Source of the DNA: Heterobilharzia americana
Taxonomy: Eukaryota > Platyhelminthes > Trematoda > Strigeidida > Schistosomatidae
Length of the DNA: 64,000 bases
Assembly: GCA_944470555.2 (NCBI GenBank)
Contig: OX104134.1
Span: 113,702,701 to 113,766,700 of the forward strand
Direction: 5' to 3'
How positions within the stretch are numbered: position 1 is the first letter of the stretch; each line of letters opens with the position of its first letter. Made by a program: the position numbers and the translations under genes. Below are positions 9,901 to 58,945 of the stretch, piece after piece. The notes under the pieces are model-generated. The model saw only the letters and a list, made by a program, of their open reading frames with translations. It was not told the origin of the DNA and did no database searches.

Positions 9901-9941
9901 AGGGTGTAACAAAATATAAGTTGAGAACTGAAGACTATTGT

Positions 9942-10453
9942 GTTTAAGGTTGGTATTCACCATGAACTGAGATAAGTTAGGAGAACACGGGATACTTGGG
10001 AGCAGTGGACAGCAGCTCTTTTGTCCCAGTATTGGGATCCTCAGTAAGGCACGTTCATGAGCCTGTCAGGGATCGATCCCAGGATCTTCGGGTTCCATGG
10101 CTAGCACGTTAGCATTGGGTCACTGGGTTGAAATCGAATGGTCCATATTTCGTCTTTTTGCCAGTTCATGATATACCGCGACCTGTATGCAATGCCGTCG
10201 TTGAGTAGCTGTCCTCGTGTTTGGCTTGACTGATCCCGTTGGAACTTTGGGCATCACCTCTTGAAGCCATTCACCACGGAACACTAGAATAATTCAATTT
10301 TAAGGTTTTTAGGGATCTATCTGTTGATTTCAGTTTGATGTTCATCATCACCTCTGACCGGGGAACCTGGATGTCCTGGGTCCGATTTCTGGTGGAGACA
10401 TGGGTGCACACTGCTAAGAAGTCCCACACTAGGACGAAACAGCTATCCAGTTC
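9942..10453. mobile_element. Foldback/SINE-like element, truncated at the inverted-repeat boundary
   Basis: One end (9942-10045) and the other end (10330-10453) are related in inverted orientation; the last ~45 bases of the second end, present in the right-arm copy, are missing here. Each end carries a hammerhead-like hairpin. On the minus strand the sequence CTGAGGA (10038-10044) precedes a TCCC/GGGA stem and then CAAAAG. On the plus strand a GTCC/GGAC stem is followed by GAAAC (10436-10440), but the CTGANGA half is lost. A B-box-like sequence, GGATCGATCCC, lies at about 10070-10082. It probably belongs to the same family as the elements at 40679 and 58633. Confidence 0.7.
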
Positions 10454-10580
10454 ACTGAGATCAGCTCATATCTGCAAGAAATTTGATTCATATTTCCTCT
10501 GCCTTATTAAACTACTTTAACATTTTCAAATAACTTCCGTAGCAACTTAGCCAATACCTAGCCCTATGATTGTGTAGGAA

Positions 10581-19597: not shown

Positions 19598-19650
19598 TCA
19601 TCATGAACTGACATCGATTGCAGAACCATTGGGGACATGAACTTACTGGT
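19598..19650. mobile_element. Possible relic of a foldback-element end
   Basis: The text TTCATCATGAACTGACATCG followed by GAACCATTGGGGAC resembles the terminal sequence of the foldback element at 40679 (TTCATCATAGACTGACATCA, then AAACCATTGGAAAT). Only this short end is recognisable. Confidence 0.4.
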
Positions 19651-22095
19651 CGGTTGATACATTCAATTATGGCATTGTTGACGGATGCGCATCCACGGCA
19701 ACCAAGTGGATTGATGCCAGGATGATAAGGACACATGAGAAGCAAGTTTACATTGAATCGATGGGTTGAAGTTCAGTGGTCCAAATATTTTAAAAACACA
19801 AACTTAATTTCTTCCCAATCCTGATTAGCGACAAGTTTCAAGATGAGTTTCTAGAAGTTCTAATAGGAAGCCATGAGTTGTGTAGCCAGCCAAATAGTGT
19901 GTGAAGTGTGGATACACACAATTGGCGTTAGAATTCAGTCTCTCTATATCAAGAGTCAACAAAAGTAGGAGAGTGTGAATTGATGGATGAATGGATATCC
20001 ACTTCTAAGCGATTTATTTATCAACGAATTGATTTCCTTTTCCTTGCTATCTTGTGTGCAAATGCAGTCAATCTTATTCAGCAGACAATCAATGAAGCCA
20101 CACCTGTATTGGAATGGATACTGGCCAAAAGACTAAAACATTGTCTTGTCCAAGTCTCCTTCTTTTGAATCGATCCTCTGACTGAACCTCCTCCTTCATG
20201 ACTAATTCGTGTGTCTGAAACGACAATTTGTCTTCCACCTCATCAGAATTGTCGCGCGGACCATTCACATAGCTTTTATAAAACGTACACTTCGAATCAA
20301 GTTTCTAGCTAAATGTCCAACTTACGATATACATCATTTAACAAGAAGCTTGAGAGACCGAACATAGCATATTATCAACTTGTTCAAACCTTTGCCCTCA
20401 GAGTTGAAATGAATTCGGTCGGTGAAGAATAAGAATTATCGTCTGAGTGGGTGTTAGGCAAACAGAAATATAAGATTTCTGAAGGATATATTGTTCCTAA
20501 ACGACATCAGTAGTCTTACCTGACAGTATCTTAGTCAATAAAGAATTCCCATGTGGAGAATAGATGATCTGTTCCTTGATATTATTATAACCTAATTGGC
20601 CAGTTGTTTCAAATGTGTCATTCACGAACGCTTGCAAACATAATCTCTCATATGATCCAATAGGTTGGCCGACTACTTTGCTGCGTTACGTGCATTGACA
20701 TGATTGGCATGTGGAAAATATTGCAAATGGTGGATTATTGGCTTTGCATCATATATATATATATGGATTTCCATTGATAGCATTGATATTGAACAATTTC
20801 AGTGGGATAGAATCTACTCTTTATTCCTATCTAAATATTTCTTCAGTAAACAATCTACAAATCCACCTTCAACTCCAGGAGTGGATAACATGTTATGTAT
20901 ATAAACAGACTTGACCAAGACAACAACTACTTCTGAATAGGATAAGGTATGGTGGTGTTGCGATTATTTCGCAACCTATACAGTGCATTAAAATCCTGAG
21001 GAGTCAGCATACTCAGTCGTTGTATTCATGCACTGTAGAGCTGAGCTGATAACCGATTTCAAATAGTTTAGCATCTAAGTCAACTCTGCTTGCCGGCAGA
21101 AGTTCGGACAAGTGAGTTTAGCAAATTTCCAAATTCGGCATCAGTCTTACCATCGGAACTTTCTGTTGCAAAACACCGAATACAAACACAGAAGGAAGAC
21201 AAGTCAGCACAGTTGGGAAAATTATTTATCGAGAGGTCACAAGAGCCTGTCACTGTTTTAAGCTGCTCATTTAATATTGTCAGATGCGAATGGGATCCAA
21301 GACACCTTTCAATGAAGCAAAAGCATCAGCTTCCTAAAATAAGCGTTAAACTTCCAGTGTCTCTGTCATGGATAAAATTTGAGAACAGAGTGTTTCGAAA
21401 CTATCCATTGACTTTGCAAATGGCTTTTACCAATGCACGTCTTCGAAAATATATTGCAACTTTGAGTGAACTGTTTTGAATTGGTGTTTTCTCTCAACTG
21501 ATCCACTTCACCACTTACTTCAACATATACTAGTATCAGATAAATGTGCATTCAAATATAATGAGAAGAATGTTGAATGCAAACAAAATACTCAGCAGGT
21601 GCAATCACTTGCAAGAAAGACTTTATTTATGTATGTTGATGAAGGAGGTGATAAATTATAATAATAAGCATAACAATCACTTTATTCCAGACAATGACTT
21701 TCAATACAGTTTGGAATTCTCACTGTGATATTTCAACAAATATACTACTTGAACAATTTTTTCAAATTAAATAACCACTACAGTTAAATTATGTCAATAC
21801 AAACAGTTTTAGGCCATCATCTAGTTTCCATGTTATTGCACGTCAATTGAATAGAAAAGCACACAGAAGTTTGGTATTCAAGCTTCATTGATTCAGTATG
21901 AAAATTCACTGTTCCTGCTACAACTTCCTGTAATATCTAAATGATGCAATTTTGTGTGCTCAGTGAGTGGCCAACTTCCGTTTGACGTGATACTTTCTCG
22001 CAGTTTTGTTGCTCACCCGTCCAACGATAGGTTGAAGACATTTCAAGACTGTACGAGAGTATGTTTTACAATTTATCTAAAGAATTACAAAAGGA

Positions 22096-24189: not shown

Positions 24190-24752
24190 GATCACATATC
24201 ATGGACTGATGTCAGTTGGAGGAACGCTGGATACCTGAGAGAACTGGATAGCTGTTTCGTCCTAGTGTGGGACTTCTTAGCAGTGTGCACCCATGTCTCC
24301 ACCAGAAATCGGACCCAGGACATCCAGGTTCCCCGGTCAGAGGTGATGATGAACATCAAACTGAAATCAACAGATAGATCCCTAAAAACCTTAAAATTGA
24401 ATTATTCTAGTGTTCCGTGGTGAATGGCTTCAAGAGGTGATGCCCAAAGTTCCAACGGGATCAGTCAAGCCAAACACGAGGACAGCTACTCAACGACGGC
24501 ATTGCATACAGGTCGCGGTATATCATGAACTGGCAAAAAGACGAAATATGGACCATTCGATTTCAACCCAGTGACCCAATGCTAACGTGCTAGCCATGGA
24601 ACCCGAAGATCCTGGGATCGATCCCTGACAGGCTCATGAACGTGCCTTACTGAGGATCCCAATACTGGGACAAAAGAGCTGCTGTCCACTGCTCCCAAGT
24701 ATCCCGTGTTCTCCTAACTTATCTCAGTTCATGGTGAATACCAACCTTAAAC
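24190..24752. mobile_element. Foldback/SINE-like element with inverted hammerhead-like ends, complete
   Basis: The two ends (about 24190-24290 and 24655-24752) are inverted, diverged copies of each other. One starts CATGGACTGATGTCAGTTGG; the other, reversed, reads CATGAACTGAGATAAGTTAG. Each has a hammerhead-like hairpin. On the plus strand CTGAGGA (24650-24656) is followed by a TCCC/GGGA stem and then CAAAAG, so the conserved G of GAAA is changed. On the minus strand a GTCC/GGAC stem with GAAAC is present at 24254-24275, but the CTGANGA part is altered. A B-box-like GGATCGATCC lies near 24615. The outer ~50 bp extend beyond the inverted-repeat arm. Just upstream (24154-24185) is a short piece resembling the 3' end of the Penelope-like element at 49060-49105. 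Confidence 0.75.
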
Positions 24753-24793
24753 ACAATAGTCTTCAGTTCTCAACTTATATTTTGTTACACCCT

Positions 24794-25951
24794 ATTGTGT
24801 CTTTCTGTGTTATCCTATACACAGGTAGGTCCAAATTCTCTAGATAACTCATCTGAATACAGTCTATCAATTAGTTGCCTATGATCTGCTTACCTGGCTG
24901 ACTTCAACCGAGTAGTTTGTCCTTTGCACTTCACCTTACAGTCATCGCAAGGTGTTTGTAAAATTATTTTACTTTGTCTAGCTGGGTCTACAGAATCCTT
25001 AAGCGCACATAGTTTGTCTGTGTTAGAACTTGTAAGTTTGAACACTACCCTAATTCCAGCCTTATCGAAAATCCTTCGTAAGCTTTCTAATAGTCCTTCC
25101 TCATGTAGCAACACCATAGAAGCCAAGGATGTTTTCTTAGTTGTGTTGCAACCACTACTTATATCAGTTTTCTATTTTGTACGCATCCTTATGCATTCCT
25201 GAATAAATTTAAGATGATAATTAACTATTAAGGAGTTAGGCTTCTCTCAAGTGTTTCATTTCCCTACCTTAATCTTTTAAACTAATGAAGAGATTACTTA
25301 AACATTGAACTACCACCTAAATAGCTGTAGAAATGCGATGATTTCCTGCGGATATTTTGTCTAAATTAACGTTTTTCTTCGATTTTTGGCCAAGCATAGG
25401 TAATTCTTCTTAGTCATCTTCTAAATGGAAATCATATTTCATCCATCTACCATCGACTGTATGCGTCTGAAGACGTTATGGGTATGTGTGGATTTAAACA
25501 AAGTAAATGTGCCATCCACATACCATCAAACATACTTTCGGACTGGTTTAGATGTTCTGGCAGCTATACGTTCTCAACTGTTAGTAAGAATATCTGTTAC
25601 GACTGGGGATTTCAGTGATCACATGGCTTTTCCTTCCGTCTGTTTATATATCCTGTTTTAACTTTGAAAACCTTAGTGGTGAAACATACCTGGATTCCTG
25701 AGATGATGTCTTTAATCGGTGCCCTAGTTCTGTGAGCGGGTTAAAGATTATTTATAAGCTTATTTCTAACAGAATTTAGAGTTTTACTGGTTGTTGCAGT
25801 GGTATAAACGCTTGCCACATCACAGACATTTACTTTTTGATCTCCTATCTGAATATTATGTTACTTTCACTTCACTCCATACGACTTGGTTAGTGTACAT
25901 TTTCAGTGGTTTGTAATTAGGCATTACACTGACGCCAAATATTTAAATATT
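24794..25951 (-). pseudogene. Degenerate Penelope-like element, mirror copy
   Basis: This is the minus-strand counterpart of the pseudogene at 8743-9900. The reverse transcriptase remnants lie at about 25425-25951 and the GIY-YIG remnant at 24890-25126, read from right to left. Translated fragments are the same as in the left arm (for example RRIFDKAGIRVVFKLTSS and CDDCKVKCKGQTT). It has no intact catalytic site and carries multiple stops. Confidence 0.85.
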
Positions 25952-26159
25952 TCATTTTCTGGGATGGTTTCATAGTCACCTACCAGTGTAAATGGATATG
26001 CTATTCATGGTTTCGGCAGTTGAAAAACTACTCTCATCTGTGAGAAGTGTCAACATGGACCATGGAATTTATAAATTTCTCCAAACTGATTATCCAACTT
26101 TAGGTATGTCGGTTAATGCAAGTCAGATAGCTGAATTCAAGTGACCTGAACTAATCCAG

Positions 26160-32600: not shown

Positions 32601-32885
32601 TGCGGACATTCCATGTCCCCACGTTTACTTTCGCTTTCATCGAGAGAAGACACATCGGCCAATTGGCTTCCCGAAGGCTTTCACCAACTGGCGTCATTTC
32701 GCCTCTCCGATTCCAGCGGGGAATAAGTTTGTTTTCATTTTTTATATTTTGTTTGTGCTTTGAAGTTTCTTTAGCGGTTAGATTTGTTTTACGGGGTAGG
32801 GTTGCTAGCCCTATGCCCAACCTTCCCTCTTTACCCGGGCTTAGGACCGGCTAGTAACTAGTAAACTAGTTAACCAGGCGAGGTT
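29671..32885 (-). mobile_element. Full-length RTE-clade non-LTR retrotransposon with intact ORF
   Basis: About 3.2 kb with a 5' terminus at about 32885, a single ORF and a (TAA)n tail at 29671-29688. It is flanked by the same nine bases, ATTTGATAT, at 29662-29670 and 32886-32894, a probable target-site duplication; the right copy runs into an (AT)n tract, so part of the match may be coincidental. The 5' end contains an 8-bp palindrome with a 2-bp centre, TAACTAGT-AA-ACTAGTTA. Size, single ORF, endonuclease plus reverse transcriptase and a short simple-repeat tail fit the RTE clade; schistosome SR3/Perere-3 has about this length, but that name is inference. Confidence 0.95.
29686..32820 (-). 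CDS. Endonuclease-reverse transcriptase polyprotein of RTE element
   Basis: An uninterrupted 1044-residue ORF. An apurinic-type endonuclease covers about residues 62-310: GTWNVRT at 68-74, catalytic Glu in ICESRW at 98-103, CYAPTN at 172-177, GDMNAKLG at 208-215, IDF at 277-279 and SDHYL at 303-307. After a lysine-rich linker, the reverse transcriptase spans about 540-830: KAAGPDGIP at 551-559, motif A FIDFEKAFDSVDR from 678, GVKQGCLLSP at 736-745 and the catalytic FADD at 780-783. A His4-Gln5 tract follows at 824-832. The C-terminal region includes YGSETW (907-912) and WIGHALRR (967-974). Together these nick target DNA and prime reverse transcription of the element RNA. All known catalytic residues are present, so it may be active. 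The ATG at residue 61 (MKAKVNVGTW) is an alternative start. The stop codon is the first TAA of the tail. Confidence 0.95.
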   Translation of the reverse strand: MGIGLATLPRKTNLTAKETSKHKQNIKNENKLIPRWNRRGEMTPVGESLREANWPMCLLSMKAKVNVGTWNVRTMFEPSKAAQIAKEMRRYNIEVLGICESRWNGSGLSKLSTGESIIYSGHPDANHEHTEGVAIMMSSRASKALMQWEPISSRIMTARFNSKGRKVTIIQCYAPTNNAEQEKKEDFYRQLQSTLDKTSVGDIKILMGDMNAKLGGDNTGRELTMGREALGEMNENGELFAEFCAFNDLVIGGSVFRHKDIHKATWTSPDGHTKNQIDFISISRKWRRSLLNTRSRRGADVGSDHYLVQGTFQIKLKAFKEAGDRPQFKYNTRKLKDETTKEIFKAAIKTKWETSRDIPEETCVEEHWKSLKAVWKETCTAVLGRKKKEDKEWISTDTWKLIEERRMVKQKINQCKDAQRQEELSTMYKTLDKEVKKSARKDKRHFYDTLASEAEQAAGKRDLTTLYQITRLLSGKRPTQMKPIKDEEGNLITKEEKQRKRWADHFKKLLNRPPPALRPEIPPAAAELQVNINPPTKMEVLNAIKLLKGGKAAGPDGIPPEALRTDAETTADMLTPLLQKVWKEEKVPDDWKKGYLVKLPKKGDLSACKNWRGITLLSTPSKILSRIILERLKDALDSKLRPEQAGFRKYKSCADQIATLRIIIEQSVEWQSALYLNFIDFEKAFDSVDREVIWKLLQYYGVPQTFIRLIQQLYEDATCQVIHNGKLSDAFEVKTGVKQGCLLSPMIFLIVVDWIMQQTVGSEKRGIHWTTEKNLEDLDFADDLCLMSHKLEDLQAKTNKLTEEAAKTGLQVNIEKTEVMKIPHHHHQQQQQTPITVNGRNLKEVTSFTYLGSTVSTTGGTDEDVKVRIGKARQAFISLKPVWRSSALSMRNKIRIFNTNVKSVLLYGSETWRATKGISNKLQTFINNCLRSLLKIRWPEKISNKELWERTNQEPITQQICRKKWRWIGHALRRPTEDITRQALEWNPYGKRRVGRPRVTWRRSCEEEMRASGLSWNQVQKISENRGHWRRATEALCSTRNPRD

Positions 32886-32888
32886 ATT

Positions 32889-32890
<2 letters not shown>

Positions 32891-37958: not shown

Positions 37959-40678
37959 TATTCCACCGAATTTTCTGATTCTTAAATGAATTAATTGGCT
38001 TCTCAAACAATAATTTTCGAAAACTTCAAATGATGACTATGGATTTCAAATAAATGTAAATCAGATTAGCTGTTTTTATAATTAAGATAGTTTTCAGAAA
38101 TCAAAAACACCTAGTTTCAGTTTGTTGAGCTCCGATGAAATCAGTCCTTTATTAAATCAAAATGTTTACCATGACAAACAAGTTTACCCATTCCAACAAT
38201 TACGCTTGGATGATGTGAATATAGTCAATACATTGCCTAGTTAGCTGACACCAACTAATATGTCTTCTAGTTCTCCGTAATTTGTTATATCTTCGTAGAA
38301 CAACAGTTATTAACACTATGCCTTGTAAGTATTGTATACAAGAATGACCTATATAACGTTATTGGGTCTAACCTCTCGAAAGCTTGAATAATCTCAAGAT
38401 AATGAGAATGAATGGATACCAACCAAATGACAGTGGTAAACAGAGATACATTAATTAATAATCTGATATAAATAAATAATTCATGTGAAATATCTGATAA
38501 GAAACACACACTCATACAAACTAGTTTGAATTGCGATATTATTGAAACACCAATTTTGAATCAGATAAACAGTATCTAATCTTACTGTTTGCAAATTACT
38601 TTCGACTTACTTTGGAGGAATCGATGTAATTCAAATTAGTAGATTTTATGAATGCTATGAAGGATATGTTTTCACTACCAGGTACAAACGGCTTAACTTA
38701 CAACGGCGTCAACGTAGTAAATTATGATTCAAACTGTTTCATCCTACTCAGAGTACATCAGTTTCAAGATGTTCAACTGAAACCGGAAGAACAACTGCTC
38801 TATTCAAAAACTAAGAAAAACGTTTTCACAGTGTATTATTTTTTCACTCATGTTCAAAATAGTTGCGAATGCAGTCCATTTTACTTGTAATTTTCCCTCT
38901 TCTTTGGTAAACCTTTTGACAGTGAGGGTAATGATAATGAAAAAGGGTTGTTTATTTGATATTAAAGTTCTGTGCATCTATTTAGTCACTTCTGCTCACA
39001 AAGTCATTAATATACATGAACACCTGCTATCACCAGAAGTTTACATCAGTTTTCAAAATGAATACATGTGAATAATATATGGTTACATACTACCTTTGAG
39101 AATAAGGATGAATACCAGTAGCGGTTAAACTATATTTCATAGGAATATGCGCAGTCTGGTTGTACAAATACTTTTATTAGAAGCACTAGGTTTATTCATC
39201 ATTACAAAGTTTATCTATCTGATTCTGGCAATTTCGCACTATAAGGTAAACAACAGTTGCAGCTCACATCGGTGATTCATACAATAGTTGACAATACTGT
39301 AAGCCTTCTTCCTCTACAATTGCATTGAATAAAAGTCTGTCATCTGAAAAGCGTATCCCTTGAGTAACATCTATAGCCGGACACAATGCTGACTCGATCA
39401 TTAAACAAAAATATGCTAACTTACATTTTCTAACTTTAAAAAAATCTAAAGTACTTGCTTTAAAGTATCAGGTTTGCTTTTGAAATGATATCGGAAGTTA
39501 ATTTGCTGCTTTACCTTATAACACATTACAACTTCAAGTAAGCAAAGTGGATGAAATCACGTTCTTTCTATTGGTTAAGTCCATGTTATTCTCATAATTT
39601 AATTGAATAATACTTTCAAAACGCCCACTCTATGAGTTAATGTTTTTGATTACAGAAACAATCAGGTGTAGTCACTGGTCAAATTATGCCAAATTCAATC
39701 TTCACAAGATTTGCATAGCATGTGTTAGCTTTTCTTCAGAAAACGTATTAAATATGTTTTAAAATGACGTCCATAGGATAAGAAAATCCTTCATATCGTC
39801 TCACCGAAAATTTGGCAAGTGTTTTACAAGCGGAAGTGACAATCTTTTCACAGAGATCACTTCCTATGTTGTTTTGAATACAGCTAGAAGAAAGATCAGA
39901 GCGAAATAATTGTAATAACTGCTGTTCGTGATGACTAAAGTAAAATATTGTAATCACAACTAAACTGAGCTACCGTCTTCACGTCTTCTGTAGCTTGAAT
40001 ATTCGCATAAAAAGTGATATCTTCAGACTGTTTATTCTCTTACACAACTTTGTCTACTTTGAAATCCCTCTTATTCTATCCACCTATCTTTTAACACTAC
40101 TGTGAAGTGTGGTAACTTGAACCAATGCACGTGTGTGTGAGGTTCTACGTTGACTCTGTCAGTCTGTCTGTTTACTGTTTCAGTAATGAAATACAAAACG
40201 TCAACAGAAGAATTGATGAAAGTTCATCCTTGGACTATCTGGGCATTTTTACATTCGTAAGATGAGAAGCAGGACAGGAAATTTAATTCTACATTAGTAA
40301 ATGAAATGCAGAAACTCAAATCATAAAGTATCTAAAGATGCGTAAATTGATTAGATACCATTTGATTAACAAGTAACAAATTCACAGTGATCGACAGTAC
40401 CTGATATGCCTAATATGTACTTTTTTCATAAAATCATTCTCTTTCATCTCAGGAGGCAACAATTTAAAATTGTTCATTTTTGCTTGAATGTCATCGAACA
40501 AGCATTCCACTTAGGGTCCGTGTTTCCTTATTGGACAACCCAATAATGCAACTGCTGCATCAAGAGTTTACAAAACATTTTCAATATTCAGATAACATTA
40601 CATGGTAAACAACAAATATTACATTTAATGAGCACTATACGGTAATGTATTTTTGAGATGAATGGGGATTTTTAATTT
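37959..40678. other. Intergenic stretch with no supported gene
   Basis: About 2.7 kb upstream of gene B. Short frames (for example 38648-38890, plus) have no recognisable domain. The promoter of gene B would lie at its left end, but no clear element is visible. Confidence 0.4.
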
Positions 40679-41101
40679 AGAGGTAGTATTCATCATAGAC
40701 TGACATCAGTTGGGAAACCATTGGAAATCTGGGAGCACTGGATGGCTGTTTCGTCCAAGTATGAGACTCCCTGGCAGTACGCACTCACGACCCGGCTGGG
40801 GATCGAACTCAGGACCTCCAGGTTCCACGGCAAACGCGTTATCCACTCAGCCACTTGGCCCGTTTTCAGTGCTTCACAGTTTCCAACTTCTATCAATCCA
40901 CGATATAGCGCGAACATCACCCAAGATCTTCAGTTGGTATCCACTTCCTTATCACCGGTTGATCAATCAGATCATGGCTTCTCATTAGAGCTTCGTGATA
41001 TCCATCTGGAGACCTCTACTAGGACAAAACAGCTGTCCAGTGCTCTCAAATTTTCAGTGGTTCCCTAACTGATGTCAGTCCATGATGAATACTACCTCTA
41101 A
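40679..41101. mobile_element. Foldback/SINE-like element with ~90-bp inverted ends and tRNA-like core
   Basis: The left end (40679-40770) and right end (41010-41101) are inverted copies: both, read inward, begin AGAGGTAGTATTCATCATRG and continue ACTGACATCAGTT. The middle, on the minus strand, has a tRNA-like polymerase III promoter: A-box TGGCTGAGTGG (40844-40854) and B-box GAGTTCGATCC (40800-40810), preceded by GATAACGCG-type text. Each end holds a hammerhead-like hairpin in opposite polarity. On the minus strand GAGTCTCATACTTGGACGAAAC ends at GAAAC (40748-40752); on the plus strand ACTAGGACAAAAC lies at 41019-41031. Their CTGANGA halves are degraded. It is the clearest member of the family in the window. 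It was probably mobilised by other elements. Confidence 0.8.
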
Positions 41102-41559
41102 AATATTGCACCTATCAGAGGTGATTTTGGCATGGTTGTACAGAAAAGTATGAAAATGAGCAAATATTACCTCACAAGAAACGAACCTGTATTGTTTTCA
41201 GGGACCTACAGACACTGATTTTATCTTTGGAACTAATATCCGTTTCCATCAATGGTTGACAAAAATGGTCACGTGGAGTCATTGCACTGTGATGCCCATT
41301 TCTTAACTTACTGACCCTAATGCATGTTTCAAGTGAGATAAGAAATTTGTTTTCATGTTGAATTAGAAATATGGTATTGTTAGACTTGAAAAGAATGATA
41401 AGTGTTTCATGAAATAAACATAAATTCATTTACCTTCCACTTTGAAAGTCTGACAGCTAGTTTACCAGTCGCACAATGTACATTAGCTTGTATAAATCCA
41501 TAAGGATATGATTTATCCAATAAATTGACCGAAATACTATGATGTTGAGAATTTCTATC

Positions 41560-41628: not shown

Positions 41629-43165
41629 CTATGAAATAAAAAATAAAGTGCTGCTTTTTACTTTACACGTTTCGCAAAAATAATATCGCGTTGCAAGAAA
41701 AACAAAGTAGCACGAGGTTTTGTTGTTTTATAAGTTGTGTATTGTTTTGATAGCGACCAAGTACAAACCTTTTTAAAATAAAAGTTATTTGTTTGAAAGA
41801 TGAGTCTTCATCTTAAAGCTGTTCAATGATTAAGAAAGTATGGAAAAATTTTGTTGAATTTTGATTATCTTCAACTCAAATTTTTATAAATGCGGTAATT
41901 GATGCATCAATAAAAAAGAGACTGAACAATGGAAATCTTGAGGCTTACGAGTGGATTGCGGCTTTTAAAATTTTATTTGGATGTATTTGCGGTTATTTAA
42001 TATCCGAACATTTTGGTGCAAATGGTTAAATGGGTTTTAATACAGGCATACTGAAACGTACAAATGAAAATAGTGAAGCTTAGCAAATAAGTAATAGTAT
42101 TATTGAGTAGATATTTTTGAATGTTTATCAAGAGGCTTCTCTAGTCGTTAGTATGCTCAAGAGTTAATGAAACTTTGTTAACCATAGCACAAACTTTTGA
42201 AAGTATTCTGACCAACAAAGGACTGGATTGAATGAAAAAACATTGGGCACCGAGTTCGTGTGATTCATCGTATATGTGTTTTTATCCGTGTATGTTAAAA
42301 GAAATAACAAAATAAACAAGTATTTTTTATTATTTCTCAGTGTTTTGATCTTGCTAGGAAAATCCTTTTCAAGATTATGGATCAGACATTAAGTTTTCAG
42401 GTTGATATTCAAGTTTGGGTACAGAAGGTTACCTTTAAGATCATCCATAGCATTAAAACATTGTTACATTTTCAAAGCTGGTATGAATGACTCAATGAAC
42501 AGTACTAATTCAGAAATACTTAATTTATGCAACTAAACCATAAGCTAATAAGTAACCAAACAGAAATGTCAACTACAATATCATTGAATATGGTATGGTA
42601 TACTGAAATATTCCATACTAACATGTTCCTAATATGTCCTACGATCATTACTTTCGAACCTAAGAAGACAAATGTTTTCAAAGTGTGGCTTTAATTAGCA
42701 TCGCTTGACTTTATTCATGTCAGTTTTGAGACTTGGAAAGTTCATCGCTAAGTGACCGAAGGTGGCGTATGCAAATTCAATTAGCATTCTTTGTAATCCA
42801 ACTAAATAAGCGGAAAGTTAACATTTTACATCAGTCCGCCAGAGTAAAATCTTCAGTAAGTAATATCCTTCTTTGAACATATTCACCACAGTTGCGGTAC
42901 TTCAAATCTGTAGAAGTGATGAGGAGATAAATGACGCTCTGAAATTGACATCTTGCTGCTCCTTTTGTTGAGTGAAACTAGAGTTTATGCTTGGTACTTG
43001 TTGTTCCCCGCTGCTACACAGCCGAAATGCTCAAACTTTGTTGTAAGATGGGCTCCTATGATGATGCCTCGATACTTTTGAATATCCATGATATTGTATC
43101 CATCTTAGTGACTCACAGTGGAATCCAAGATGTGCATCCCATCCCTTTGTACAAGCGAAGGATCT
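41629..43165. other. Stretch with no supported gene (possible gene D intron)
   Basis: AT-rich; no ORF, repeat or RNA gene recognised. Confidence 0.35.
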
Positions 43166-43325
43166 AGCACCTCAGTGGCCTAGTGGATAGCGCTTTGGGG
43201 TTTACAGCTATAAATACTGGTTTCAAGTCTCCGTGTGAATAATATCACTCACTCAGAGACAGGTTCATCCAGCTCACGAGTCCCAAGTAGGACGAAACGC
43301 GTGTCCTTGATTCCTCTGAGAGTGG
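43166..43325 (+). mobile_element. Smalpha-like SINE with tRNA-like promoter and decayed hammerhead
   Basis: In order on the plus strand: an A-box-like AGTGGCCTAGTGGATAG (43174-43190), a B-box-like GGTTTCAAGTCTCC (43219-43232), then a hammerhead motif at 43266-43315. The hammerhead has CTCACGA (43273-43279) where CTGANGA is required, so the invariant G5 is C. Its stem II, GTCC/GGAC (43280-43283 with 43290-43293), is intact, as are GAAAC (43294-43298) and the following GTGTCCTTGATT, which matches the usual GTCCTGGATT cleavage-side strand. The order promoter then hammerhead is that of the schistosome Smalpha family, known to encode active ribozymes; this copy is probably inactive. Confidence 0.8.
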
Positions 43326-44942
43326 TCAAGAAGATTTGAAGAGTATGTTTTCATAAAATATTGGGCAGATGGTTGTTGAACTAAACCACATTTGCTAATT
43401 TCAGTAAAATTATACCCTACAAAAATTCGACTCACAAAGAGAAGAATTAAAATCAAAAAAGGTATGGAATATATGGTGATATAATACTCCAAGTTAAATA
43501 ATACCCTACTCCAACAATAGGGTCCTCAAAAAGTAGAAAATTTCTTTGTCCAATTCTTTAGTATCATGGACGCAACTGTTTCCATTGGTTTATTCATTAT
43601 ATTCATTAACATGCTGCTTTTCATTTTGTTAACAGAAAATGTAACAAGCCTCTAAAGTATCAGAAATCAGTTTGCAAAAGTTTGTTTTGTAAATCTCAAG
43701 ATCCTATACGGATTTTTTTAATGCAGACACACGTTGGAATTAATAAATTTATATATTTGTGCCTCAAATTTTGCAGCGTATGATTATCAACTCATAAATA
43801 AAAGTTAGTTGAATATGAGTAAACTCAAGGATACCCAGTGCAATCACTGATTTAATTGGGGGAGGTCCGAGCATGTATGCATTATTGGTTCAAAGACGAA
43901 CTCTTCATACATGATCAGTTCTTGAACTTATTGAAATCTGTGGCAGGTAATCGTTTTCATGAAACTACAAACGAAATGCCATTGAAATGCCTTTCCACAA
44001 AGTATGATGGTATTTTGACACAAGTGAGCCGTATAGATCAGGCAAATGTAGTTTTTTCACAATTCCCAGATAGCCAATCGATATAATGAATTTTTATTTG
44101 TCAGTCCCATGAATAAGTAGTCTATTAGAACCCTTCAGGTGGCGTGCAGTAGTTTTACAAGTAAATGCATACATGCAAAATGTAAAAATAATAAATCCAT
44201 GCCTTTTCAGCATGAAAAGTTTTATTTCGAACTTTTGATGTTGACTGATTTCAGTCTTAAAAAATCTCAACCATTAACACTTTCCTTTTCACCAATATTG
44301 TTCAGAACATTTGGCTTGATCATTTACTTATTTCATGTAGTGTTCCTTTGAATCTGCTTCTACCTGCTTAACGCTAAGATATGGATACTGACACATTCCC
44401 AGTTGGTAATTGGAGAAGTACTGCAATGATTGTGGTGAAGTATTTCAAAAATAAATTTCAGAATTTTATTTTCACTCATGAGTTGGAATCACTGTTCATT
44501 TGCTTTACGCATACGCAACTAAATTAGCATAATCTTGTTGGTCATATGCACTGTGATCGCTAGATGAGGGTAGCATAACAGCATTTAAGCATTTCAATGG
44601 TTTCATGCTTCAACGCAATAATATTACAGCTCAACTCATAGTATTGAACTCATTATAAATGAAAATTCACCGCCAAAATCTTGACTTGCATGTTTTCATT
44701 ACTATAAAAAGGAAATTACTAGCAATATTCAGGCAACCGAACCAAAGTCAGCTGATTCCCACTTTTTTCAATTGATATCAGATCAAATTATTTCATAGTG
44801 CAAGAGCGAAACATAAGCTATGTAGTGCAACGCAAATTCAGATGAAACCAGTGTATCTGATTTGAAACCCAGTGAATATTATATTGCGCAATGACTTTCT
44901 GAGAACAGTTTCTTGCTTTTAAGAATATTTTTGAAAGATATT
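43326..44942. other. Stretch with no supported gene
   Basis: Short ORFs at 43856-44086 and 44139-44351 (plus) show no domain. No repeat recognised. Confidence 0.35.
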
Positions 44943-46747: not shown

Positions 46748-48960
46748 TATTATTATTATTTGTCCTCTGGATTCCTACTGGAACATAGGGCTTCAGAAGC
46801 ACGTTGCCATTTCACTCTATACTGCGCAGTATTTTCAAACTGGCTCCACAACTAACCAGAAGCTTTCATTTTTTCTTCATATGATCTACACGTCACCCCC
46901 ACCTCGGACGCACAACTAGTCGTTTACAATTTGAGTTCCACTAGACGGCATGGTCTGGCGCATGATGTCCCCGAATAGTCTTCTCAGTGTATGTCCAATC
47001 CAATCCATCTCCACTTTCTCCTGCATATTTGTTGGGCGACTGGTTCTGTCTTCTCTGTCTTCTCTACGTTCACCTGAAGGAAGTACCGTCTTCACCGCCT
47101 AACCTCTCCTGCCAACTTGTTGGCTTTTGCCTGTAGATCTTCGAGTTTGTGCTACATTGGACATAAATCTTCATCGTCGGAATTCAAATCGTCTTCTAGG
47201 ATCTTCTCATCGATCCAGCCAGACTATGTCCATCTTCTCACAGCTCCTCACAGTTTCTTGTATGATCCAGTCCAGTCCAGTCGACCATAATCAGGAGGAT
47301 CGTCGGTGAGAGTTGGCGGCAACCTTATCTTACTCCTATCCCCAAAAACTCACTTCAAAGGCGTCACTGAGCTTTCCATTGAGAATCACGTGGTATGTAG
47401 TATCACGTAGCATCCAGCTGGTGAATGAGGTTGGTGAAGGTTTGAAACACTAAAACCGTAGTGTTGAAGTAGCAGATGCCGAATTACTTCACGGCCGACG
47501 CTGTCAAAGGCCTTTTCAAAATGCATGCAGTTGAAGTAGAGAGTTGACTGTCATTCTATGCTGTGCTCTATGATGATGCGTAGCTTAGCACAGCGTTGCA
47601 ATTTGATCCGCACATGATTTGTTCTTCCTGAAGCCAGCCACTACACTGCTCTGGTCGTAATTTTGAACCCAGAGCACTTTTTATTCTCTCTAGTATGATA
47701 CGGCTTATTATTTTGCTTGGAATGGACAGGGTCAGAAGCATGATTCTGCGCCAGTTCTTACAAAGATTAAAGTCTCCCTTGTTTGAAGGTTTGACAAGGT
47801 AGCCCTTCTTCCAATCAATCTCCAGGTAACTTTCCTTTCTTTCTTTCCTTCTTTCTTTCTTCCTTCCTTCCTCCTTTCCTTCCTTGCAGATCTTCTGGAA
47901 TAGTGGTGTCAGCGTGTCCGCTGCTGTCGTCTCTGCGTCTGTTTTCAGTGCTTCTGGTGGAATTCCATCCGGTCCTGTTGTTTTCTCGGATTTCAGAAAC
48001 TGTATGACATTCAGAACTCCACTTCTGCTTTTGTCGGAAGGCTTGTGTTCACTGATAGTTCTGCGTCTGGGCTACTGGTGGTGGTATTTCTTGACAAGAT
48101 GCTGGTGGTGGTAGCGGTCGATTCAAGAGTTTTTTGAAGTGGTCAGCCCATCGTTTCCTCTGTTTCCCTTCTTTGATAACTAGGTTTCCCTCACTAGCTT
48201 TCATTGGTTTCATCTATGTTGATCTCTTCCCAGATAGTAAGTAACCTGGTTATTCGATATAATTTTGTCGGGTCTCTGACTCCCTTACCTGCAGCCTGTT
48301 CTGCTTCACTTGCCAGTGTGTCGTACGAGTGTCTTTTGACTTTGCGCTGAGTCTTCTTCACTGCTTCGTGCAGTGTAGTACTTTATAGGTTGTGTTCACC
48401 TCCTCTTCTCGTTGGTCATCCCTACACCGGTTTGTCTTCTCCTTCACCATCTATCTTCCTCTCTCTCCTCAATCAGCTTCCATGTGTCCATCGAGATGCA
48501 CACCATTCCTTGTCTTGCCTCTTCTTCTTCTTCCTTCCTAACACGGTTATGCGGGTTTCTTTCCACATCTCTTTCAAGGAATTCCAGTGTTCTTCCACGC
48601 GTGTTTCTTCAGGGTTGTTATCCTGATGACTGACTAACGTGAAGATATCCTTCGTAGTTTCCTCCTTCAGTTCAATTCCTGTTCTGGGTGTTCAACTTCA
48701 ACTGTGGTCTATCGTCATCAACTTCTTTGAAGGCTTTCAACTTGATTTGGAAGTCAGGTTCATTGCACTAGATAGTGAGTGGTGTGAACCTACCATCTGC
48801 TTCCCTTCTTGATTTGATCTAACCTTTGTCCAGTAGGCTGCGTATCCACTTTCTTCACATTGAGATGAAGTCGATCTGATTTTTAGTGTAGTGTGTTGAT
48901 CTGGTGAAATCAAATCCATGTTGCTCCTTTGTGAATATCCTTGCGCTTGTACATACTGTA
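46748..48960 (-). mobile_element. RTE retrotransposon, 5'-truncated, old and degraded
   Basis: Minus-strand copy with an ATT-rich tail at 46748-46760 that runs to about the middle of the endonuclease domain at 48960. It lacks a large block of the C-terminal half (around 47040 it jumps from the C-terminal WIGHALRR region to the KTEV region). Many indels leave no frame above 80 codons. It is the most diverged of the long copies. Confidence 0.9.
47833..47885. repeat. Pyrimidine tract (TTTC/TTCC)n inside the RTE copy
   Basis: Imperfect CTTT/CTTC repeats of about 50 bases on the plus strand. The intact element has only a short CTTCCTTCC at this site, so the tract expanded here. Confidence 0.85.
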
Positions 48961-49004
48961 AGTGAAAAACTTGGGCACTGTGGTAGAATGTAATTCCATA
49001 TTAG

Positions 49005-50870
49005 ATTTGTTTATTTGATATAAAGCGCACAGTGATACAGTATTATTTACTTGATTACGTTTCGAGCATAAATTATTGCTCATAATCATATCAATGTAAT
49101 CACACTTCTTTCGACATCTGATTTTATAGTCCTGTCACCTGATCTCTCTTTGTTTTTTGTTTTTTGATTGGTAGTAAAGTTTTCCATATCTCTGGTATAG
49201 GTGTTGCGTCATTCCTATTACATGTGTTGGGTGTGGATTCGATGAACAAAGATTCAGTAATTAATCTCTCTCTCCACCTAGCTATATTAGACTTAAGTAC
49301 AGTGGTTTTGTCCCATCCTATTGTGTGGTTGTGTGTTAATGAATGTAATGCAATGGCTGAGTGTTTTTCTAGGTTATTGATCTTATTGGGGTCTGCCGTT
49401 CTATGTTTAGCTAAATTCCTATGTTCTGTTAATCTAACTGACCCCGACCGGCTAGTTTGACCTATGTATTTGACTTCACAGTCATTACATGGAATTTGGT
49501 AGATTATATTATTTTGCTTAATTGGTTCTATCGGATCTTTTAGCCGACAAAGCTTACCTCTAAGTGAGTTTGTTGGTTTAAATGCCACCCTAATTCCAAC
49601 CTTGTTGAGAATCCTACGTATGGTTTCTGATGTTCCTTCCTTGTATGGTATCACAATAGAGGTGTTGATTTCCTTTCTACTTATGTTGTCACTATTATTT
49701 GTATTTGTATTAGTGTTATTATTTTGCTTCTTATGTGTCCGTGTGAATTTCTTAATAAAATGATGGGGATAATTATTAATTATTAACGCTTCTTTTATGT
49801 GTTTCAATTCCTTATTTAAGTCCTTACAATGACTAGTGAGTTTCTCAGCTCTGTTATTTAGACATTTGACTAAACCCGCTTTAACTGACACTGGATGAGA
49901 TGACTTGAAGTCTAGATATCTGTTAGAATGTGTTGGTTTTCTGTAGACGGTAGTATCTAAACCACCATCTATCCTTCGTTTTATTCTGCAATCCAACATA
50001 GGTAATTCTCCTTGTTCATTTTCTACTTCGTAAGTGAATTGGATTGCGTTAACTACTGAGTTTATGTGTGTCAAGAAACTGTCGATATGTTCCGATTTCA
50101 ACACTGTAAATGTGTCATCTACATATCGCCACCATATCTTAGGTGTCGGATTATATGTTCGTAAAGCCATATCTTCCCAACTATCCATAAATATATCTGC
50201 TACTATAGGGGATATTGGTGATCCCATTGCTACTCCTTCTGTTTGTCTATATATCTTTCCCTGAAACTTGAAGACTGTCGAGGTTAAGCATAACTGCACT
50301 CCTAACATGATTTCACCAACCGATGCCTTGGTTCTTTGAGTAAGTTGTGAGTCAGTATCTAGTTGATTTCTGACTGCCTCCAGTGCCATATTGATTGGTA
50401 TTTTAGTATAAAGACTTGTTACGTCAAAACTAACCATTTTTTCATTCTCTTCTATGTGCAGGTCATTAAGTTTTTGTTTCAACTCGTAAGAATTTACTAG
50501 TCTAGAGTTGGAACGGTCTCTAACAGGACGTAATACTGATGCTAAATACTTTGATATCTCATATGTTGGTGTGTTCGGAAGTCAACTATCGGCCTAATGG
50601 GATAACCTGCTTTATGAACCTTAATAGTACCGTAAATTCTGCTAGGATTATTAGTTTTTGGCATTAAAGTAAACCATTCGGACTTACCTAGAGATGGCTT
50701 CAGTCGGCGTATCAGATCTGTTGTAGATTTCTTAATTTTATTCATGACAGTATCTATAGGTTTCTTAATCTCTTCATATGGCCCTGTTTGGATATGTTCA
50801 TCCATTTTTTTAAGATAATCCGATTTGTCCATAACTACTGTTGAGTTACCTTTGTCAAATTTAGCAATTA
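49005..50870 (-). mobile_element. Penelope-like retroelement, 5'-truncated, nearly intact coding part
   Basis: This minus-strand element spans the reverse transcriptase and GIY-YIG regions plus about 120 bp of 3' flank. It stops at about 50870 in the middle of a coding block (AKFDKGNSTVVMDKSDYLKK). The truncated end forms a perfect 12-bp inverted repeat, listed separately. The 3' flank contains a stem (GAGCA/TGCTC, 49063-49085) followed by GAAAC on the minus strand. A piece of this same flank recurs at 24154-24185. It resembles Penelope-like elements reported from schistosomes; no family name is asserted. Confidence 0.9.
49124..50832 (-). pseudogene. Penelope-like reverse transcriptase with GIY-YIG endonuclease, one frameshift
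   Basis: Two overlapping frames, 50542-50832 and 49124-50482 (open further upstream), join if one base is missing near 50578. The upstream part reads up to RPIVDFRT; the downstream one resumes TPTYEISKYLASVLRP. Reverse transcriptase motifs: SFDVTSLYTKIP (motif A), EGVAMGSPISPIVADIF (motif B) and the catalytic YVDD (motif C), in WRYVDDTF. After a lysine/asparagine-rich linker comes a GIY-YIG nuclease: IYQIPCNDCEVKYIGQTSR, with paired cysteines as in other Penelope elements, then LTEHRN. The ORF ends RDQVTGL then stop. The nuclease cuts the target and the polymerase copies element RNA. The N-terminal part is missing, so it is probably not autonomous. Confidence 0.9.
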
Positions 50871-50890
50871 GCGATTAGTAATTGCTAAAT
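50859..50890. repeat. Perfect 12-bp inverted repeat at the truncated PLE end
   Basis: ATTTAGCAATTA (50859-50870) and TAATTGCTAAAT (50879-50890) are exact reverse complements separated by eight bases. The left arm is coding sequence of the element, so the right arm looks like a snap-back copy made at the 5' junction. Confidence 0.9.
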
Positions 50891-51655
50891 CGCAGATATT
50901 AGTGTGAAACGTTATTGAATGGTATACTTTAACTTCACTCATAAAATGACATATACTTTCAACAGTAAGTACACAGAAAAAACTGAACTATAGGCAACCA
51001 CTAGATTGTATAACCATACAGTAAAGAGGCTTGCTTTTTTAAAGGGAAGAATAAATTTGCAAGCAAAACTGACAGATGATTGATGGATACAGCATACTCA
51101 ACATTCAAAAAACCAGCCTGCTTACTCATTCCGTTGAATCAACTGCAACTAAAGTAATATGACCTGATTTTGTAAACAGAATGAAAGAATAATTAACGAA
51201 GCATTTCGCTGTTAACTGTCGTTTGATTTCGTTAAGAATTCGCATATTATTTTAACATCGTTAGTGACATTCATTCACTGATTTGCACCAGCTCATAGAG
51301 ATCTCAGTTCATTAGTTTTTAATTTTCACAACTGAATTATAGGTAACACTACTATACACCTTCACAATCTCAAGTAATTCTTTTCTTCTGACTAAAAAAC
51401 CATTTCCTATTTCACACACAAACTAACAGAATGTTGATCTTTTCGGCTATGTTCTCTATGTAACTGCTTTAAATTCTAGTGTATATTGTGAATTTTGAAA
51501 GTAGCCTTTCTTCGAGCATTCCGGCCACTTCATTCATTGAATAACTGTTTGTAATAAGCGTTATAGTTTCAAACTATTGCAACTTCCAAAAGTCATAAGA
51601 TAAAATGTAAACATTTTGTTATGAAAATGTCTTTGTTCGTGCTGAGCCATGAACA
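50891..51655. other. Intergenic stretch with no supported gene
   Basis: No ORF, repeat or RNA gene recognised. Confidence 0.4.
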
Positions 51656-51800
51656 AGTTAGTATTTATGATCGACTGACATTAGTTAGAGAAACATCGGA
51701 AACCTTGAAGCAATGGACTGCTGTTTTGTCTTAGTATAGGAGTCCTCAGCAGTGCCTACACATGACCACTTCATGGGTGGAACCCAAGAAAAAATCAAAC
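51656..51800 (-). mobile_element. Foldback/SINE-like element, one end only
   Basis: Starts AGTTAGTATTTATGATCGAC and is closely similar to the left end of the element at 58633, through the hammerhead-like hairpin (minus strand CTGAGGA, then CTATACTAAGACAAAAC, at about 51715-51745). It continues to the sequence before the B-box, GGTGGAACCCAAG. The remainder is missing. Confidence 0.75.
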
Positions 51801-53940
51801 CATCATAATGCGTTCAGAAGAAGTATGTAAGACCTCTTTCTTTGCCGGTCATTAGAGATTATTGACCACTGTAGATTATTCACATACGACGCAACTATTC
51901 GCATTCTTTAATCACTTTTTGTATTTCCCCATCAATTAACTCATTTGAGAGGCAATTTATATTGATGTTTGATCGGGAGTTACTCTAGAATTTTCTACCC
52001 TTTTTACAATATACTCACGAATGTACATCTAAGAGAATGATTTCGTTGAAGAAGTTTTCGTCACTGCATTCGTCTTCTGAGACATCCGATTATTCTTCAC
52101 TCAGTGAACTAACCTCATTAAGTGTAGTTACTCTTTCCTCTCTTAAATTTTCAAGTCATATTCTCCAAAGTCTATGTGGTGTTTAAAATTTGTGGGAGAA
52201 ATTCTTTGCCACCGTCCTACCATATTGATATTTTGTAGTCTTTTACTAGCTGGATTTAGATCGACCTTATTTGCAATTTTAACAACCTTGTACATCAATT
52301 AGATGTTTTTAAATTTTTTCTCAGATTTATTCTCAACACCTGTAGGTCAAAGCTGGCCACTGTATTTCCTAATAAGTCTCTAAGGGTGGAAATTCCCTCG
52401 AAAGCACTTTTCTGTCACCCACTCTTATTCTACTTTACAGGTTAGGCGGAAGTTTTCTGAATGTACAAAGGAGTGTATTAGTTAATCTCTGGCTATATCT
52501 AGCAGCATGAAAGTTATGGAAGTGGTAATAAAACTCATTTTAAATTTTCAGGCAAATAGATCTGACGAGTTTCATCATCTGGTTTTGCTATTGCCAAATT
52601 CAGGAGGCTATCTACACTCTGTTACATTTGCATTTAATTTTCCGATGAACTAGGCTAAACACTCGCAACATACTTTCCGCATGAATTAAGTTGTTGCAAA
52701 CAATCGTGACCACACCTGTATAAGGCGTTTTCTAGTTGGCTGAGTCACGAGCTTTGTTTTTTGTAGGTTATCAATAGGTGAAAACTGGTCTCAGTATGTT
52801 CCCTATAGTTACACCATGTTATTGACAGTAAAATTTGATTTTGCGCTGATAATTAGCGCTGATGGTATACAGCCCCAATCAGCTTCAACCGCATGTTCGG
52901 GAACGGAAATTCACTCTAAACGCTGGCTTATGGTATATATTGTTTCGTCTACATGAGTGTCTATGAATAATGAGGATACATCAGAGCAAACCATCCATTT
53001 AGTTGACTTTTTTTCTCAGTGAACCTGTAAGTGTCTTTTAAGCTTTGAATAGCTGATTCTTTTCGAACTGGTTGCAATTTATTCTCAAACTAGTGAAGCA
53101 GACTGTGACAAGTAGAGTTAGTCGTGAAGATTAGTAGACTCAATGATATACTTCTTTTGTGTAGTGTTGTCCGTTCATACAAACCAAGTAGTTATGAGCC
53201 CAATGGTTAAAGAACTCTTAGACCCTTTATGGAATTATTCTTGAGGTATGGATTAAACTAATCACAGTTTTAGTCGAAGAATCGCGCAAACTTAGATTAC
53301 CAGCACTCGACAGTAAAAACTCTTTGATTATCAAACTTCTATCTAAGTAATAATGAAATATCAGCTTACATTACGCTGCATATTGTATTCACACATAGCG
53401 GTCTCTTATCAAATTTAAACCACATTTAATAACTAGCTGAACTTATAGTCTTTATTATTTTACGTAAATTTTGACCTGAAGACAGTCATCATTCAAGTGT
53501 ATTGAACTGAATTTTTCCTTTAATTGGAACAGCTTGACTCAACCAAAGTATATCATCAGCATGTTACTTTGATCAGCATTTAATACAAACTACTGTTTGG
53601 CATTTTAAATAGACTAACCTAATATGCAACCGCACTCTACCACGGTGCCCAAAATCTACACTTCAAATGCTTAATAATTTAGCTCATTCGTTTTACAGCT
53701 AGCCTATATGGTGTAGGTCAGTTAAATATTTGTCATATTGGTTAAATAATAGTTAAGCGGTTCCAAAAAATGTATTCACATTAATATTTTCTCGTTGGTT
53801 CTACCATTTGTACATTTTGGATACTGTATCCAGTCTAGCTTTAAAAAAAAAGTTTTATTAGTTGATACGATATATTTTTGTCACTTTTATTTGTACATAA
53901 AATTATACTTGTTCATTGTTCAACAAAAATAAACAAAACA
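51801..53940. other. Intergenic stretch with no supported gene
   Basis: AT-rich; no ORF above 60 codons and no repeat recognised. Confidence 0.4.
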
Positions 53941-58100: not shown

Positions 58101-58445
58101 TCGATGTGATACCTTCTCATCTCCCTTGCAATCTGGGCTGCCTTACTGGGTTCAAACATCGTGCGGACATTCCATGTCCCCACGTTTACTTTCGCTTTCA
58201 TCGAGAGAAGACACATCGGCCAATTGGCTTCCCGAAGGCTTTCACCAACTGGCGTCATTTCGTCTCTCCGATTCCAACGAGGAATAATTTTGTTTTTATT
58301 TTTTATATTTTGTTTGTGCTTTGAAGTTTCTTTAGCGGTTAGATTTGGTTTACGGGGTAGGGTTGCTAGCCCTTTGCTCAACCTTCCCTCTTTACCCGAG
58401 CTTAGGACCGGCTAGTAACTAGTAAACTAGTTAACCAGGCGAGGT
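55184..58445 (-). mobile_element. RTE retrotransposon, full length with 12-bp target-site duplication, frameshifted
   Basis: Complete from the 5' terminus (58445) to the ATT/TAA-rich tail (55184-55204), flanked by the perfect duplication TGGAATCCAATA at 55172-55183 and 58446-58457. The ORF is broken into 57905-58381 (N-terminus, endonuclease start), 57485-57856, 57066-57434, 55535-57133 (532 codons: linker and reverse transcriptase, DFADDLCIMSH present) and 55251-55697 (C-terminus). Breaks at the GCAGTGCAGAAG site near 55680, the TGCTTGCTTTGGG site near 56485 and the AGGCTGACTGCG site near 57491 are the same as in copy 1. Its insertion must be recent enough for the duplication to remain perfect. 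It lies in the gene C intron, same strand. Confidence 0.95.
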
Positions 58446-58632
58446 TGGAATCCAATAAGTAAGTAAAAATAATAGTGGTCTCATTGCTCATCACATTTGA
58501 ATTTCACTGGTATCACAAAACAAAAAGAGCGTCTATTATCTTGATACTCATAGAATTAGTAAACTCACGAAGAATGAGTGACACAGAATGAACATAATTT
58601 GGAGGTTTTTTGGGATTTATTTATCGATTTCA

Positions 58633-58938
58633 AGTTAGTATGTATAATCGACTGACATTAGTTAGAGAAACATCGGAAACCTTGGAGCACTGGACTGCTG
58701 TTTCGTCTTAGTATAGAAGTCCTCATCAGTGTCTACACATGACCACTCCATGGAGGGAACCCAGGACCTTCAGGTCCCATGGCCAGCATGTAGACATCGA
58801 GCTGCTAGGTTCAATCGCTGATGGGTCACTAATGTGCTCCGCTGAGGAGTCCAATATTAGGACGAAGCAGTTGTCGATTTCTTCCAGGTTTCCGATTTTT
58901 CCCCAGGTAATATTGATCCATAATGAGTACCAACCTGA
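58633..58938. mobile_element. Foldback/SINE-like element with two hammerhead-like motifs in opposite polarity
   Basis: The left end (58633-58730) and right end (58840-58938) are diverged inverted copies: AGTTAGTATGTATAATCGAC at one side, GGTTGGTACTCATTATGGAT reversed at the other. On the minus strand an intact CTGATGA (58723-58729) and GAAAC (58700-58704) flank an imperfect stem. On the plus strand CTGAGGA (58842-58848) with a GTCC/GGAC stem is followed by GAAGC (58863-58867) instead of GAAAC. These are the best preserved cores of the family here. The middle is shorter than in the 40679 element and the tRNA-like part is less clear. It lies in the gene C intron. Confidence 0.75.
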
Positions 58939-58945
58939 AAACTAG

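Follow-up and report, generated by a model that had tools for sequence, protein, structure and literature searches.

Head-to-head inverted copies are a recognized feature of Penelope-like elements (PLEs). In the available portions of PMC3846280, PLEs are described as carrying inverted pLTRs in head-to-head order, one of which may bear a tail of ~31 bp; a target duplication is frequent, and palindromes at PLE junctions are interpreted as the product of self-priming. A lizard PLE studied in vitro cuts and extends both strands and is predicted to be dimeric; it starts at two adjacent internal sites, the interval between them constituting the tail, and no difference in start site between its strands was observed (PMC11167929). 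Among smaller elements, SMalpha is a SINE-like schistosome element with a type I hammerhead (PMC8490949, in the portion available), and the available text of PMC7229834 names PLEs as strong candidates for the movers of metazoan retrozymes. The head-to-head structure and the tail of PLEs are already known, then, and movement of retrozymes by PLEs has already been proposed. For the origin of the inverted PLE copies the available part of PMC3846280 invokes self-priming, and PMC11167929 leaves the later insertion steps unvalidated.

Foldback copies in the window

The window, that is, the whole stretch of 64,000 nucleotides of Heterobilharzia americana DNA analysed here, was noted in a preliminary description to hold three loci (A, B and C) of one plan, with ends that are inverted copies. 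Alignment of the halves confirms that A, B and C are inverted pairs of one repeat, with 5' ends pointing inward and 3' ends outward; the arms carry a hammerhead region of type I together with a 3' tail, and the longer arms a tRNA-like promoter as well. This promoter, earlier placed between the ends, belongs to an arm and is no separate insert. All three loci are real, but further copies (A', D and E, below) had been overlooked.

Locus B is a complete head-to-head insertion. The locus itself stands, but its limits, previously placed at 40679-41101, are best set at 40624-41100, the left arm having about 50 bases more tail (40624-40675) than those limits gave. This left arm, of the T type defined below, spans 40624-41009 on the minus strand and contains a hammerhead at 40732-40782 with a mutated core, a tRNA-like promoter at about 40795-40862 and then the 5' region as far as a junction near 41009, these interior limits being set by eye. 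The right arm (41010-41100, plus strand), of S type, ends inside the hammerhead with a GGACAAAAC remnant. A weak, putative target-site duplication flanks the insertion, with AAATATTACA at 40614-40623 on the left and AAATATTGCA at 41101-41110 on the right; it is 10 bp long with 1 mismatch, and a score at least as good was reached in 4% of 2000 random window stretches.

Locus A (24190-24752) is an old head-to-head pair within a PLE copy. Its left arm lies at about 24190-24337 on the minus strand and its right arm at about 24341-24752 on the plus strand, the latter beginning with a partial tail and reading, by eye, as a truncated dimer. Comparison with a PLE paralogue shows that A has lost the outer end of its left side along with about 190 bp of target, which makes comparison with the empty PLE site uninformative. 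The locus is also present as A' (9941-10459), which is an inverted segmental duplicate and not an independent insertion, 24235-26000 matching 10459-8694 at 99.8% identity over 1.77 kb. One breakpoint of this segmental duplication falls within the hammerhead SINE of locus A. Locus C (58581-58940) is a further old head-to-head pair, consisting of a left arm on the minus strand, the tail of which runs to about 58581, and a right arm on the plus strand at about 58796-58940; the arms are only 64% identical to each other, and a search for a target duplication at C found none. Locus D (51654-51789, minus strand) is a single 5'-truncated copy with 91% identity to the left arm of C, and locus E (19583-19786, minus strand) is an old copy with a ruined hammerhead, beside which 19835-19979 gives a weak 59% match to the 5' region in the opposite direction.

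The copies in the window are of considerable age, and their hammerheads have decayed. With E values up to 5 admitted, an Rfam scan gave no hammerhead in A or B, and in C one below threshold (20.1 bits, 58842-58875). The proposal of hammerheads at both ends is confirmed at the level of the family, as described in the next section. The window also contains a PLE open reading frame (49124-50581, minus strand; RVT_1 at E 6e-8 and, towards the C end, a GIY-YIG match below threshold at E 0.024), around which (48000-53000) no inverted repeat of at least 25 bp was found, and a copy of a second hammerhead SINE family (42991-43347), with a hammerhead at 43267-43311 on the plus strand scoring 44.5 bits.

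Pairing and outer ends across the genome

Two queries were run against the assembly to which the window belongs (664.9 Mb, 337 contigs). For sample 1 the query was the end of B (102 bp), which brought up 4707 first-look candidates; 40 of these were scored, 38 loci were fetched, being all others among the places listed, and after 2 duplicates were dropped 36 independent loci remained. Sample 2, obtained with the 5' region of the unit, gave 3028 candidates, of which 40 were scored, and 30 loci with 98-100% identity to the query, reduced to 27 by dropping 3 duplicates. The loci removed (L019, L032, L049, L061 and L063) are segmental duplicates or repeats of one insertion, and 63 insertions are left. 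Both samples consist of the top-scoring copies of two queries and hence are young and not random, and neither query contains the tail between S and T.

As judged from these copies, the element is a SINE/retrozyme of 397 bp, putatively of tRNA type, that contains a type I hammerhead. When full-length copies are aligned they form a circularly repeating 397-bp unit, in which box-like motifs can be seen by eye; ARAGORN run on the window reported zero tRNA. The search with the B end, unit alignment and two-strand Rfam hammerhead scan that had been recommended at the outset yielded this unit and, among 20 loci scanned, placed Hammerhead_1 above gathering in both arms of 7 (L006, L010, L011, L013, L021, L031 and L042), the two matches lying on opposite strands. 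This supports the suggestion of a retrozyme-like family whose arms each hold a hammerhead, with polarities opposed. Some arms span more than one unit in tandem (for instance L021, L031, L048 and L072), and because some S arms are longer than one unit, as is the 576-base S arm of L021, the template has to be either multimeric or a circle that was traversed repeatedly. At L039, a long hairpin (1152-1295) that is matched below gathering by several miRNA precursor models is probably a small inverted-repeat element.

The foldback plan of the hammerhead SINE is genome-wide, and pairing is far above chance. Head-to-head pairs, in which the 5' ends meet centrally and the 3' ends face out, make up 51 of the 63 independent insertions (30/36 in sample 1 and 21/27 in sample 2). 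Copies no more than 30 bp apart in the 63 loci comprise 55 head-to-head, 0 tail-to-tail and 1 same-direction arrangements; within 300 bp, a distance at which older neighbours are counted too, the figures are 57, 5 and 4, and within 100 bp there is one tail-to-tail pair. The second arm can be as short as tail sequence only (L034, L015). One-armed insertions account for 12 of the 63; six of them (L012, L033, L037, L040, L057 and L070) have a plausible duplication of their own, with an end of S or T type, and no convincing one was found for the other six (L016, L029, L053, L054, L069 and L073). Two-ended priming would thus be usual but not obligatory.

The two outer ends of a pair are not alike. 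S is the arm end that follows CTACTTCTAAA, at unit position 375, and T usually lies 22-40 nt beyond S. Every pair with two canonical ends combines S with T (45/45, of which 44 by script or alignment and 1 by eye), S+S and T+T both being found zero times among these 45. The script assigned S+T to 25 of 26 pairs in sample 1 and to 17 of 17 in sample 2, the labels depending on score thresholds set by the author (12 and 14, respectively) and the outermost end being taken as the arm end where arms are tandem. L034 and L015 are S+T by alignment, and L026, scored S+S by the script, reads by eye as S with an older, diverged T. T is joined to an internal, non-canonical end in five pairs (L044, L047, L051, L014 and L028) and S to an internal end in one (L068), the internal arms starting at unit positions of about 172-323, less clearly so in L051, L014 and L068 than in the others. 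Clear duplications flank L044 (15 bp), L047 (17 bp, 1 mismatch) and L028 (14 bp); L014 and L051, both without a clear duplication, may be damaged copies. Pairs with an internal start and a target duplication might represent a second, rarer priming mode. Two candidate features of the ends were discarded: a clustering of the 5' ends of T arms where the hammerhead begins (7/28 in u262-274) is absent from the T arms of sample 2, and a predicted stem-loop with S in its loop (z = -2.0, 71 nt) is, by eye, not retained by the older subfamily.

The duplications flanking the pairs are direct, not inverted, and enclose the whole pair, and because this is so in most cases a pair is one insertion event. 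For the 26 pairs of sample 1, the mean match score of the flanks is 9.35 as against 5.20 for mispaired flanks, and 11 of 26 score at least 10 as against 0.3% of mispaired flanks; for the 17 pairs of sample 2, the means are 11.0 and 5.6, with 12 of 17 at the high-scoring level as against 1.1%. The observed mean was reached by 0 of 5000 permutations in each sample. Scores below 8, counted as duplication undetected, occur in 9 of 26 and 1 of 17 pairs, respectively. L034 and L015 are also flanked by a duplication, with scores of 11 and 10.5.

The arms of a pair also resemble each other beyond what permuted pairs would give, both in within-pair identity and in shared derived variants (p = 0.0001 each, 42 pairs with enough overlap; p = 0.003 and 0.009 in sample 1, p = 0.0001 for both in sample 2). 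Many private variants are common to the arms in young pairs such as L048 (99.7% identity over 300 columns), L060 (98.3%) and L066, and zero are common to them in several others, for example L056, L058 and L072 in the sample 2 run. Shared source variants imply that the arms often come from the same RNA or source; origin from one template molecule appears to be supported for some pairs, not for every pair. Inner breakpoints are spread along the unit. Of 24 pairs in which the overlap between aligned arms was measured (range -12 to 11), 16 show one of 1-5 bases. The S arm exceeds the T arm in length in 19 of 24 sample 1 pairs (p = 0.007), a modest trend to which B is an exception. L017 (near 1577) and L031 (near 1548) have nearly the same inner junction, with different flanks and with S and T on opposite arms, which may reflect a hot spot or RNA copied from a foldback locus.

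Penelope-like elements, a second SINE family and an RTE control

PLEs of the H. americana genome carry the same signature as the hammerhead SINE, namely head-to-head order with S+T ends. A genome search with the window PLE frame gave 88 scored matches, 98-100% identical, from 55,549 candidates, many of the 88 having frames near 900 aa; copies near-identical to the window frame are abundant. Tandem PLE units lie 2654 bp apart, and the 27 close neighbours among the 88 scored matches consist of 13 head-to-head, 14 tandem and 0 tail-to-tail arrangements. Outer ends were fetched for 10 of the 13 head-to-head pairs and proved to be S+T in six, T with a truncated end in one, and uninformative in three, where the outward sequence is near-identical on both sides. 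Among the S+T pairs, duplications were found by script at L080/81, L082/83, L086/87 and L094/95 and by eye at L096/97 and L098/99, for which the script gave short matches only; L090/91, the pair with the truncated end, has a duplication too. S and T are separated by 33-39 nt in the four pairs called by script and by about 20 nt in L075; from a GAAAC motif to S the distance, read by eye, is about 65 nt for the PLE, as against 72 nt for the SINE. Rfam returned no hammerhead above gathering in five PLE loci, and comparison of the SINE with five PLE loci gave no sequence similarity except for a chance match of 17 nt, so that the partner may belong to a different PLE family. At L084 and L085, PLE ends at the PLE's S-T region run into SINE-like sequence (the tRNA region, by eye) within a larger palindrome. 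At L075, a twister-like match (3413-3468, 32 bits) adjoins the 3' end of the PLE pair, which suggests that the pair was inserted at the 5' end of an RTE.

The second hammerhead SINE family differs from the main one in its tRNA-like part and in its hammerhead; to judge by the window copy (43267), it is presumably closer than the main family to SMalpha, the schistosome SINE-like family reportedly described by Ferbeyre in 1998. Six of 12 loci read as S+T pairs, all six with matching flanks (raw scores 9 to 13.5). Three of these (L101, L104 and L107) are S+T by script. The other three (L100, L106 and L110) are S+T by their outermost tandem ends as taken from the table, the script, which stops at the next tandem unit, having labelled them T+T; L102, L103, L105, L108, L109 and L111 were not called as pairs. 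The spacing between S and T in this family, at 111-122 nt, is longer than in the main family.

An RTE element served as a control. From 1392 candidates, a query of 301 bp taken close to the 3' end of the RTE frame gave at least 40 matches, those listed being at 100% identity as rounded. No paired neighbours occur among the 40 matches listed, the nearest two on one contig being 71 kb apart, with the proviso that the piece lies inside the frame and that very short second arms would escape it. The lack of pairs among the matches listed argues that paired insertion is no general habit of retroelements in this genome. Upstream of RTE-like retrotransposon frames in the window sit three Type-P1 twister matches (3145-3218, 32817-32890 and 58378-58451, all on the minus strand, 39-54 bits and below gathering), the second of which adjoins a (TA)n run; twisters at RTE 5' ends are already mentioned, as work in preparation, in the available part of PMC7761336. 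SECIS_1-like hairpins at 32642-32707 and 58203-58268 (minus strand; 34.2 and 35.4 bits, gathering 35) belong to the RTE elements of two of these twister matches and lie some 110 nt downstream of them.

Proposed two-ended priming, its rivals and its precedents

Very probably, the hammerhead SINEs are non-autonomous elements of the metazoan retrozyme type, moved by PLE machinery through two-ended target-primed reverse transcription. The putative tRNA-type promoter would yield element RNA, possibly multimeric, which the hammerhead presumably trims to units or circles. A PLE enzyme, probably acting as a dimer, would make a staggered cut in the target, and each of the two 3' DNA ends thus exposed would serve as primer for cDNA synthesis on the element RNA. 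Synthesis would begin at S from one end and, from the other, at T, which is usually 22-40 nt further 3'. The resulting cDNAs would then meet and be joined, the point of joining varying and the overlap there being 1-5 bases in most cases, and the product would be a head-to-head pair within one target-site duplication. By geometry, a pair inside one duplication points to a cut with 3' overhangs of roughly 8-14 nt. At the level of sequence, this model is supported by the pairs, the single-event duplications, the S/T asymmetry, the variants that arms have in common and the PLEs with a like signature; which enzyme acts, whether as a dimer, and what the hammerhead does are inferred. It is also somewhat favoured that PLE-type integration is intrinsically two-ended and asymmetric, one reverse transcriptase serving each DNA end and using S or T on the same RNA, never the same site. 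Inverted terminal copies would then be the normal PLE product, and RNAs with an S/T region, such as those of hammerhead SINEs, would be passengers. Exclusive use of S and T within an insertion is not predicted by PMC11167929, where no strand difference in start site was seen for the lizard PLE in vitro.

Snap-back priming, suggested in the preliminary description, would have the cDNA of the first arm fold back and be copied into the second. Head-to-head order and the near-identical arms of young pairs (L048, L060) are what it would produce, and it agrees with the self-priming reading of PLE junction palindromes in the available part of PMC3846280. It predicts, however, a second arm that ends at the end of the template arm or in inverted target, whereas the outer ends are S and T in 45/45 pairs, the flanking duplications are direct and the junctions are scattered along the unit; the S/T difference largely refutes it, and it is very unlikely. 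Separate insertions, head-to-head by chance or through a strong preference for sites beside older copies, are extremely unlikely. The diverged arms of C and the likeness of its left arm to the solo copy D would suit them, as would neighbours that are clearly separate (the tail-to-tail pair within 100 bp and the five within 300 bp), but the survey speaks against this caveat of the preliminary description, with 51/63 loci paired, 55 head-to-head and no tail-to-tail arrangements within 30 bp, one duplication enclosing a pair and variants shared by its arms.

Classical twin priming uses both DNA ends, inverts the 5' part of the element and leaves one 3' end. Such priming by RTE-type (LINE) machinery in place of that of a PLE could draw on elements that are abundant and very young here, to judge by the 40 matches listed, and it would likewise employ both DNA ends; but both outer ends of the SINE pairs are 3' ends, unlike those of the classical product, the RTE copies listed lack paired neighbours and PLEs carry the signature in question, which makes this route quite unlikely. 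Barely credible is a foldback or MITE-like DNA transposon that moved as a unit and whose inverted ends carry hammerheads incidentally. It would explain inverted ends, target duplications and the nearly common junction of L017 and L031 in different flanks, yet arm lengths and junctions differ from locus to locus, the ends differ by a tail, and tandem units and single arms exist. With S and T on opposite arms, L017 and L031 are not copies of one unit, and L018/L019 and L031/L032 are segmental copies with common flanks.

In the literature searched, coverage of which was partial so that priority is not established, no report was found of head-to-head hammerhead SINE insertions or of the S+T rule. 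That rule is a simple, countable fingerprint that can be searched for in any genome and tested with purified protein; through it, what has been a nuisance in annotation would become a means of reading out mechanism. Two opposed motifs, an arrangement not recognized in the preliminary description, have a precedent in the head-to-head pLTRs of PLEs, which in the available part of PMC3846280 come with an optional tail of 30-40 bp at one end and, in the cases cited, target duplications of 8-10 bp. Like the SINE, EN-containing PLEs of the Penelope/Poseidon type have head-to-head inverted terminal copies, tandem units and target duplications, and the SINE has the PLE-type features of paired terminal copies in one duplication and a tail at one inverted end. 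The SINE itself is no PLE, its 397-bp unit being far too short for RT and GIY-YIG in one frame; it differs from PLEs in being without an RT/EN frame, in its putative tRNA-type promoter and in having no detected sequence in common with the PLE compared. The lizard PLE carries a hammerhead motif (PMC11167929), whereas the SINE carries a full type I hammerhead. By its description, SMalpha resembles the main family in being SINE-like with a type I hammerhead. Metazoan non-LTR retrozymes, as presented in the available text of PMC7229834, share with the SINE a type I hammerhead, a unit of 150-450 bp and tandem copies; they are described there as tandem repeats, in a main text that, as available, is without the words 'inverted' and 'head-to-head', whereas the SINE of H. 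americana is mostly arranged in inverted pairs.
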